A DNA stretch of 55,844 bases, taken from an uncultured Woeseiaceae bacterium (GTDB lineage Bacteria > Pseudomonadota > Gammaproteobacteria > Steroidobacterales > Woeseiaceae). Location: positions 1 through 55,844 of the forward strand of contig CAMYMR010000006.1 in assembly GCA_947259285.1 (NCBI GenBank), in the 5' to 3' direction. Every line of letters starts with the position of its first letter. Position 1 is the stretch's first letter. Below are positions 44,214-54,129 of the stretch, piece after piece. The notes under the pieces were generated by a model. That model was not told where the DNA came from, did no database searches, and was given only the letters and a program-made list of their open reading frames with translations. A program made the translations under genes and the position numbers.

Positions 44214-44323
44214 CGAGATTCCTGGTCAAGTCCTTTTGCTGATTTCGGGCAAAACGACCAGAACTCTCGACCGGCGATGACGCCGGACTCGCCGAATACA
44301 GGTATTTCTTCGGCGTTGGTTTT

Positions 44324-44404
44324 GGCAACCCCGCTGTCCTAGGCTCCTGCCCGTAGACCGGTGGCTTTGCGTCCCTGGCTTTCGCCAGGTTTGCCCTTGT
44401 CATT
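44324..44404 (-). ncRNA. Cyclic di-GMP-I riboswitch (GEMM-I)
   Basis: Read on the minus strand. The 5' end AAGGGCAAACC begins P1, and a stem TGGC-GAAA-GCCA with a GNRA tetraloop follows. The hallmark GGACGCAAAGCC comes next, then the second arm CCGGTCTACGG, and the closing GGACAGC-GGGGTTGCC that pairs back with GGGCAAACC. The order and the conserved bases match the c-di-GMP-I aptamer, including the tetraloop and the GCAAAGCC core. It lies 110 bases upstream of the FN3-domain gene. Two hairpins follow the aptamer (CGCCGAA...TTCGGCG and CCGGCG-TCAT-CGCCGG) and may form the expression platform. Without a clear poly-U run, the on/off sense cannot be told. Confidence 0.93.
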
Positions 44405-44479
44405 GAGATTTAACGTAACAAATCGATGAAAAAATGCCGGCGCGTTTTGACTTAATGCACCGTGAACTTTCAGAACTGT

Positions 44480-53660: not shown

Positions 53661-53689
53661 TTGACAGTCAGGGGTCCTATCAGGAGAAT
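53661..53689 (+). promoter_or_regulatory. Promoter of the tRNA(CAT) cluster
   Basis: TTGACA (53661-53666) and GAGAAT (53684-53689) are spaced by 17 bases. The position, about 40 bases before the first tRNA copy, fits a tRNA promoter. It would drive the interrupted copy first, then the intact one, ending at the terminator 53998-54024. Confidence 0.6.
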
Positions 53690-53731
53690 TTGCGGCCCTC
53701 GCGTGACAGCATGGTCGGCGGGCAGATTTTC

Positions 53732-53879
53732 GGTGATGTAGCTCAGATGGTCAGAGCGGCGGACTCATAAGCCTTAAGGCTCGGTGGTTCACAAAACGCG
53801 ACAGCGTTTTGGACGCCTCCGGCGCCCCCGAAGGGGGTGAGGATCGCCCAGAGGCGATCCGAATCCATTCCACCCATCA
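53732..53879 (+). pseudogene. Interrupted tRNA(CAT) copy
   Basis: The first 39 bases are identical to the intact tRNA at 53912 (acceptor strand, D-arm, and anticodon loop CTCATAA). Next, the 3' side of the anticodon stem and variable loop are replaced by the palindrome AGCCTTAAGGCT. The T-arm begins GGTGGTTCA and is broken by a 75-base insert (53792-53866). It then resumes ATTCCACCCATCA, which joins exactly as in the intact copy. The last acceptor bases and the CCA are missing (GG in place of CC). Without the insert the anticodon stem is still not paired, so a functional product is unlikely. Confidence 0.8.
53792..53866. repeat. 75-base multi-hairpin insert in the tRNA T-loop
   Basis: Four adjacent hairpins: CAAAACGC-GACA-GCGTTTTG, CGCC-TCC-GGCG, CCCCC-GAA-GGGGG and GGATCGCC-CAGA-GGCGATCC, ending GAATCC. 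It divides GGTGGTTCA from ATTCCACCC exactly where the intact copy has them joined. The terminal GAATCC looks like the 3' half of a canonical T-loop (TTCGAATCC), suggesting the element was carried from another tRNA. It has no coding capacity. Confidence 0.75.
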
Positions 53880-53900
53880 GGTGATAAGGTTGGGTGGAAT
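53867..53900. repeat. Ten-base inverted repeat after the interrupted tRNA
   Basis: ATTCCACCCA (53867-53876) is perfectly complementary to TGGGTGGAAT (53891-53900). The first arm is the remaining 3' T-arm of the broken tRNA, so that segment would now fold with downstream sequence instead of a T-arm. Confidence 0.6.
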
Positions 53901-53911
53901 ACAGACAATAC

Positions 53912-53988
53912 GGTGATGTAGCTCAGATGGTCAGAGCGGCGGACTCATAACCCGCAGGTCGGTGGTTCAATTCCACCCATCACCACCA
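53912..53988 (+). tRNA. tRNA(CAT), probably elongator Met
   Basis: A 77-base cloverleaf with encoded CCA. Acceptor GGTGATG pairs with CATCACC, discriminator A; D-arm GCTC/GAGC; T-arm GGTGG-TTCAATT-CCACC. The anticodon loop CTCATAA gives CAT. The anticodon stem GCGGA/CCCGC has an A-C mismatch at positions 31-39. CAT anticodons belong to elongator Met, initiator Met or lysidine-modified Ile2. The paired first acceptor base rules out an initiator; Met versus Ile2 cannot be settled by eye. Confidence 0.88.
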
Positions 53989-53997
53989 AGCAAATGG

Positions 53998-54024
53998 AAA
54001 GGGCGCCCTTGCGGCGCCCTTTTT
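53998..54024 (+). terminator. Rho-independent terminator after tRNA(CAT)
   Basis: AAAGGGCGCC-CTTGC-GGCGCCCTTTTT: a seven-base GC stem extended by A-T pairs, ending in a T-run ten bases after the tRNA CCA. The bases from here to about 54129 show no feature. Confidence 0.9.
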
Positions 54025-54129
54025 GTTTGCCCGTGTGACAGGGTGAATTCGAACTACCGAAGGTGGTTCATCAAAATCGCACTGTCCCGCAGATTAAGTA
54101 TTTCAGGGTCAAATTCCTGGATATGCAGA

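Follow-up and report, generated by a model that had tools for sequence, protein, structure and literature searches.

The window analysed here is a stretch of 55,844 nucleotides from an uncultured Woeseiaceae bacterium (contig CAMYMR010000006.1 of assembly GCA_947259285.1). It carries an intact elongator tRNA-Met gene (copy 2) that is preceded by a broken copy of the same gene (copy 1), and the T-loop of the broken copy holds a 75-base hairpin element (Table 1). The initial annotation had placed a promoter-like TTGACA/GAGAAT pair ahead of two tRNA(CAT) copies whose first 39 bases are identical, and both points are borne out. The promoter is the sole sigma-70-like site that the scan returned between 53600 and 54150 (0.4 in shuffles), and the initial 39 bases of copy 1, counted from 53732, are those of 53912-53950 in copy 2. 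The promoter and terminator had been taken as shared by the two copies; the promoter stands by the scan, while the terminator was read from the sequence and the scan lists a hairpin there on the opposite strand only. Copy 1 is not called a tRNA by ARAGORN, which in this region reports the intact gene alone, and its Rfam tRNA score of 21.2 is below threshold. At gathering scores Rfam reports two tRNAs and one c-di-GMP riboswitch for the whole window. The latter, a c-di-GMP-I riboswitch of 87.4 bits, lies at 44321-44405 on the minus strand.

Table 1. Features at the tRNA-Met locus, in window coordinates
Feature	Positions	Strand	Basis
Stable-RNA-type promoter: TTGACA (53661-53666), 17-base spacer, GAGAAT (53684-53689)	53661..53689	+	promoter scan
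Broken tRNA-Met copy 1, 5' part up to T-loop GGTGGTTCA	53732..53791	+	39-base identity to intact gene
Palindrome AGCCTTAAGGCT, 12 bases, replacing 3' side of anticodon stem of copy 1	53770..53781	+	
Hairpin element, 75 bases, tRNA-linked-repeat kind	53792..53866	+	model R3 match 53786-53870, 62.5 bits, E 5e-15
Hairpin 1, loop GACA	53792..53811	+	sequence; helix covariation
Hairpin 2, loop TCC	53814..53824	+	sequence; helix covariation
Hairpin 3, loop GAA	53825..53837	+	sequence; helix covariation
Closing module Y-GA-[hairpin 4, 53841-53860]-GA-R, with covarying Y-R pair	53838..53863	+	
T-arm remainder (ATTCCACCC), fold-back with GGGTGGAAT instead of acceptor-stem pairing	53867..53900	+	sequence, folding
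Intact elongator tRNA-Met(CAT), copy 2	53912..53988	+	ARAGORN, Rfam
Terminator-like hairpin and T run, 3' of intact tRNA	53999..54024	+	sequence; scan places hairpin on opposite strand only
Second repeat-unit remnant: inverted T-arm and GGTGGTTCA, no element	54041..54070	+	sequence; unit complete in relative L032

In copy 1, exactly 75 bases separate GGTGGTTCA (53783-53791) from ATTCCACCC (53867-53875), and the region 53733-53905 folds more strongly than its shuffles (z -4.9; 0 of 200 as good). The split of the T-loop by four hairpins, as first described, is thus exact in its coordinates. Since the remainder of the T-arm folds on itself, copy 1 is without the 3' side of its acceptor stem; similar fold-backs were seen by eye in L029-L032 and L064. 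The palindrome noted earlier in the anticodon stem is present, and of the broken Met copies read this one alone has it; those of L029-L032 retain CCCGCAGG or CCCGTAGG instead.

The spacers between the hairpins of the element are mostly GA, and its helices are maintained by compensatory change. In an alignment of 71 copies made by MAFFT with no use of structure, 16 of the 26 pairs showed double changes, with 180 double-change cells against 52.8 in shuffled alignments (0 of 500 as high). Across wider taxa (77 matches, 75 distinct), 25 of the 26 pairs had such changes, with 433 cells where shuffles gave 98.5, in an alignment that was fitted to the covariance model and is hence biased toward it; alignments A2 and A3 were fitted to models R1 and R2, respectively. 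The Y of the YGA before hairpin 4 pairs with the R of the closing GARTC (CG 36, UA 32 and UG 3 in the 71 sequences). Because of this pairing, the terminal GAATC is the conserved end of the element itself and not a borrowed half of a T-loop, and the earlier reading of GAATCC as the 3' half of a standard T-loop has to be given up. G-U pairs make up about 1% of the inner stems, compared with 2 to 4% in tRNA stems, which suggests pairing at the DNA level.

The genome is a draft of 166 contigs, estimated to be 84.8% complete, and a decayed tRNA next to unrelated hairpins, brought together by chance or by misassembly, might be suspected. However, the window-type split tRNA-Met copy recurs in independent assemblies of other species (L029, L031 and L032, with L030 and L033 cut by contig ends), which refutes this reading, and the covariation of the helices also speaks against it. 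We therefore give an artefact next to no credence.

The element is not confined to this locus. The hairpin-1 pattern alone was found in 79 stretches of the named genome collection, 38 of them titled Woeseia or Woeseiaceae, 24 Gammaproteobacteria, 9 Proteobacteria, 5 Chromatiales, 2 Pseudomonadales and 1 a Micrarchaeota bin. A profile search over 156 of 158 sequences (L001 and L002 were left out as repeats of the window) gave 191 matches and 125 distinct copies; the loci behind this set had been obtained partly with a query containing tRNA-Met bases and otherwise through the hairpin-1 pattern alone. Further copies at tRNA genes, for which a search of the genome and its relatives had been proposed, were indeed found: a tRNA lies within 300 bp of 81 of the 125 copies, on the same strand in 80 of the 81, with 64 copies behind the tRNA and 16 in front of it. 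Sixteen isoacceptors adjoin these tRNA-linked copies. For the other 44 no tRNA was present within 300 bp, several of them being at contig ends or followed by a tRNA-like tail. In the same genome as the window, further copies are located behind tRNA-Ser(TGA), behind tRNA-Arg(CCT), and in an apparent broken tRNA-Arg copy upstream of an intact tRNA-Arg(CCG).

The point of junction is equally recurrent. Among 79 full copies with enough flank, 66 begin after the T-loop motif TTC(R)A, so that the proposed recurrence of a hairpin element in tRNA T-loops holds. A few copies of the element sit in anticodon loops, namely those of pseudo-copies of tRNA-Ser(GGA) and tRNA-Ser(CGA), one of which belongs to another family of the order. 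Broken tRNA copies (Met, Ser, Arg) upstream of the intact gene form another variant. Some neighbouring arrangements were also recorded. L052 and L071 (G026 contig 7) contain two to three units head to tail, away from tRNAs, with GGTGGCCAGGGGCGG before and ATCAACCACCGACACGCGG after; GGTGGCCAGG also precedes copies in L244 and L253 of the window's own genome. Different hairpin clusters with the same tRNA-Ser tail, i.e., further types of element at equivalent sites, occur in L003 (1679-1735), L038 and L067 (about 1040-1110). Sub-cut-off matches to sX4 (Rfam RF02223) on L226, L169, L165 and L009 overlap the tRNA-Ser genes that precede these repeats, and this family may contain a tRNA-Ser copy.

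A complete unit consists, in order, of an intact tRNA, a terminator, an arm complementary, with mismatches, to the tail of the tRNA, then GTTCGA, the element, and the tRNA tail once more, running to CCA; a second terminator often follows, and the unit is sometimes repeated in tandem. We examined 45 units that had at least 25 bases of flank and an intact tRNA no more than 300 bp upstream on the same strand. In 40 of them the arm was closer to the complement of the tail than shuffled flanks were on average, and in 27 the bases after the element matched the last 19 bases of the unit's own tRNA at 18 or 19 positions. Measured against the exact complement of the tail, the arms of these 45 units carry 49 changes that keep a G-U pair, as against 15 other transitions, together with 72 transversions. 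Such an excess suggests pairing at the RNA level, though a strand-biased C-to-T change could mimic it.

This anatomy offers a route to the split tRNA-Met copy that requires no insertion. An intact tRNA-Met with a tRNA-linked repeat (TLR) behind it would contain GGTGGTTCA twice, in the T-arm of the tRNA and in the arm before the element, and recombination between the two stretches would remove the interval and leave a split that looks precise. The window retains an inverted arm with GGTGGTTCA behind the intact gene; L032 has there a full unit of GAACCACCGAAGGTGGTTCA, element and tRNA tail; and the order at E. coli tyrT is tRNA, unit, tRNA, units. Such an event accounts for the Met case, but the copies in anticodon loops remain unexplained by it, and the split Met copies bear different element types by species, those of L032 and L064 being of other sequence than those of L029 and L031. 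On balance, we consider such a deletion plausible, with a probability slightly under even.

The initial annotation had proposed a small palindromic mobile element that targets T-loops. Of this proposal, the recurrence in T-loops stands; mobility does not follow from our data, as no enzyme, no Y1 association and, with the one pattern tried, no empty site were found. In this reading, the hairpin cluster would insert as DNA into the hairpin loops of tRNAs through a single-strand mechanism with a putative helper enzyme. The occurrence of one element kind at 16 isoacceptors fits such a spread, as do the anticodon-loop copies in the tRNA-Ser pseudo-copies, the head-to-tail units of L052, whose borders are the same and which lie apart from tRNA genes, and the scarcity of G-U pairs expected from DNA-level pairing. 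Furthermore, within a genome, copies located at different tRNAs resemble one another more than expected (0.805 over 18 pairs against 0.759 over 1060 pairs; 3 of 1000 permutations), in a comparison that used the 49 of 71 sequences with an assigned tRNA and hand-set genome labels. On the other hand, likeness is also seen between genomes for copies at one and the same tRNA (0.788 over 94 pairs; 1 of 1000), which points to inheritance in place. The empty-site pattern GATGAGAACN{2,6}GTTCRAATC, the one pattern tried, had no match in 73 genomes; the arm and the element may arise together, or the pattern may be too strict. Viral contigs gave no exact match to one pattern and plasmids none. Five phage records matched only in the tRNA-Met half. 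Y1_Tnp is absent from the copy-rich genomes G019, G021 and G036 and has one match in the window's own genome.

A Y1 transposase is a doubtful mobiliser, as it showed no association with copy number among 37 genomes of the genus (mean 4.9 copies in the 14 without Y1_Tnp, 5.4 in the 23 with it). The anticodon-loop copies and the likeness of copies within genomes would favour insertion into loops, and the likeness across genomes at the same tRNA would favour inheritance in place. Spread of a mobile element is a tentative reading, which we place clearly below an even chance.

The element might instead be the remnant of an integrative island whose attachment site is the T-loop to 3' end of tRNAs, the hairpins then being the end of the island. 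In G026 contig 12, tRNA-Ser 3' ends recur behind tRNA-Ser(CGA) with genes between, as this reading would have it. However, 64 of the 125 copies are within 300 bp downstream of a same-strand tRNA, which is too close for a gene of ordinary size, and the E. coli relatives examined are not islands. An island remnant is therefore improbable. In L069/L070 (40001-75000 of this contig), these 3' ends stand at about 2, 7, 12 and 18 kb from the tRNA; the intervals contain protein genes, a hairpin element precedes two of the four ends, and the arrangement is island- or cassette-like.

The position of the promoter bears on expression. In seven relatives whose loci have no broken copy (L020, L021, L022, L023, L026, L027 and L065), the TTGACA promoter stands directly before the intact tRNA-Met; two other such loci, L024 and L028, have no promoter directly before the tRNA. 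Where a broken Met copy is present, the promoter precedes the broken copy, the first hexamer being TTGACT in L011. In the window, the scan found no further promoter-like site between copy 1 and the intact gene. Because of this position, the precursor of the intact tRNA-Met probably includes the broken copy, and the 53661-53689 promoter probably drives both. The initial annotation had held the broken copy to be probably still transcribed, given a shared promoter and terminator; judged from the promoter comparison, transcription of copy 1 is likely. Its other suggestion, an RNA processed from a tRNA precursor, would fit as well by analogy, as E. coli relatives yield RNAs from tRNA and rRNA precursors according to passages of PMC8144298 and PMC4986893.

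The element kind extends far beyond the genus. The models contain only 6 to 7 tRNA-like bases per side. With R1, 66 of the 73 genomes searched in the genus gave matches at E 1e-4. In an order sample, 116 of 296 genomes matched (57 of the own genus, 17 of other genera of the family and 42 of other families), and in a class sample, searched at 1e-6, 49 of 370 did, including two from the own genus. With R2 at 1e-6, 50 of 397 genomes of a phylum sample matched, including the own one, and 27 of the 50 belong to other classes. Linkage to tRNAs within 400 bp was tallied among the matches listed: 23 of 30 loci in the order (30 of 58 matches, from 24 chosen carrier genomes), 9 of 10 new loci in the class, 10 of 18 in the phylum (18 of 20 loci) and 9 of 10 in G091 (10 of 12), with the G088 loci left out of the tally. 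All tRNA-linked loci of these four groups are on the strand of the tRNA. The window's own genome had 4 linked copies among the 10 inspected (10 of 14 loci), and its weaker copies were dispersed, again among the matches listed. In a genome of another class (G678, L273), eleven matches of near-equal score to a related hairpin cluster are scattered over the one genome.

R1 and R2 were built without E. coli stretches, and R2 nevertheless matches the repeat between the E. coli rrnB terminators (32.7 bits, E 2.4e-8 in 901 bases) and, in register, all four RtT units of E. coli tyrT (17.3 to 25.0 bits). The rrnB example is present in very many expression plasmids. Three E. coli argQZYV units are matched weakly (10.9 to 15.6 bits), and by eye these have mainly the last two hairpins in common with the element; the glyVXY and leuQPV stretches of E. 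coli gave no convincing R2 match. R3 was made from 36 repeats of taxa beyond the order, of which E. coli supplied four, aligned to R2. It finds the window element as its only match below E 0.5 in 55,844 bases, and it recovers copies in each of the 14 related loci searched with it, scoring up to 92 bits. Hence, the hairpin cluster is like that of E. coli members by R2 on rrnB and tyrT and by R3 on the window. The window copy lies in a tRNA operon, between the tRNA-Met promoter and the intact tRNA-Met. Its 3' tail has decayed after CCCATCA (best agreement with the tRNA end, 11 of 17) and the upstream complementary arm is absent, because of which it falls outside the simplest definition of a TLR.

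Curated Rfam families also do not formally include the window copy, because their thresholds are not reached. The region 53782-53873 resembles AaHKsRNA22 (RF02902) over its full length with 36.1 bits (E 4.5e-5), under the curated cut-off of 39.8, as are the matches in the relatives L230 (38.1 bits) and L169 (32.4 bits). For RtT (RF00391), none of 30 genomes exceeded the curated 45 bits, the best score being 41, and the window's own genome gave no match at E 1e-3. In the RtT consensus structure, too, the 3' end of the tRNA is paired with the arm that precedes the element.

TLRs have been known since 1978, with 22 copies at ten loci in E. coli (Rudd 1999), each ending in 18 to 19 bp of the upstream tRNA or rRNA gene, as stated in passages of PMC8144298. 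The same passages report that the rrnB-terminator repeat is transcribed, processed and bound by Hfq and CsrA, that CsrA binding is predicted for three rRNA-operon TLRs only and for none of the 19 tRNA-operon TLRs, and that an early claim of a role of the tyrT repeat in amino-acid starvation or the stringent response was withdrawn. Since no CsrA binding is predicted for the tRNA-operon TLRs and the early role was withdrawn, no function carries over from E. coli, and any regulatory role of the window copy would be conjectural. Descriptions of TLRs, in the source passages available, cover Enterobacterales and Pasteurellaceae, and RtT-like attenuators are assigned to BIMEs in a part of PMC2965389.

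Taken together, the 75 bases in the window are very probably of the tRNA-linked-repeat kind. Units of this kind are compact, with four covarying hairpins, and at the 3' end they normally continue into a copy of the last 19 or so bases of the local tRNA. In the window, the unit lies directly within the T-loop of a spare tRNA-Met copy and not behind an intact tRNA. The broken copy, being between the tRNA-Met promoter and the intact gene, is probably transcribed within the tRNA-Met precursor, from which tRNA maturation would probably release it as a small structured RNA. The anatomy, the family resemblance, the covariation, the linkage to tRNAs, the preference for loops and the promoter position are observed; transcription, processing, DNA-level spread between tRNA loops and any regulatory role are inferred.

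As far as we found, the breadth of occurrence, the covarying fold, the arm ahead of the element that complements the tail of the local tRNA, and the presence of copies inside broken tRNA copies (T-loop and anticodon loop) are new. The literature searched held no description of these elements in Woeseiaceae, nor of insertion into T-loops. The TLRs of E. coli, long known, have no settled function or origin. A covariation-supported model that works across orders, a defined T-loop junction and species with elements at some tRNAs only make origin and function testable by comparison. Besides, the broken tRNA-Met copy demonstrates that the element can sit inside a tRNA, not merely behind one.

A broader possibility is that TLRs form a single ancient class of nucleic-acid parasites or commensals, found throughout the phylum, that enter tRNA hairpin loops (the T-loop at about positions 57/58, the anticodon loop after TTNGA), have the tail of the occupied tRNA, either carried or regenerated, and are read from tRNA promoters as small RNAs; the tyrT and rrnB repeats of E. 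coli would then be tamed survivors. We regard this as speculative and rather unlikely.

Among known systems, the RtT units of E. coli tyrT (RF00391) have the same order of parts: an arm complementary to the tRNA tail, GAGAA, GTTCGA, hairpins, a closing GA..GAGTA, and ATCC to CCA, with GGATGAGAA included; in contrast, the element scores below the RtT cut-off in all 30 genomes searched. Like E. coli TLRs in general, it is a hairpin cluster of a kind joined to the last 18 to 19 bases of a neighbouring tRNA or 5S gene; unlike them, the window copy occupies the T-loop of a broken tRNA that stands upstream of the intact gene, its hairpin sequences differ, and its relatives also occur in anticodon loops and dispersed. 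Upstream placement resembles that of the Actinobacillus RtT RNAs, which are located upstream of tRNA-Asn and tRNA-Lys and were seen in Northern blots according to a part of PMC4986893. AaHKsRNA22 of Aggregatibacter matches over its full length, although under its cut-off. The RrA/RrB/RrF sRNAs of E. coli rRNA operons are alike in that the rrnB-terminator repeat is matched by R2, and differ in being behind 5S rRNA and not in a tRNA. REP/BIME elements are likewise dispersed palindromic repeats, whereas the window element is of a tRNA-loop-linked, four-hairpin kind for which no tie to a Y1 transposase was found.
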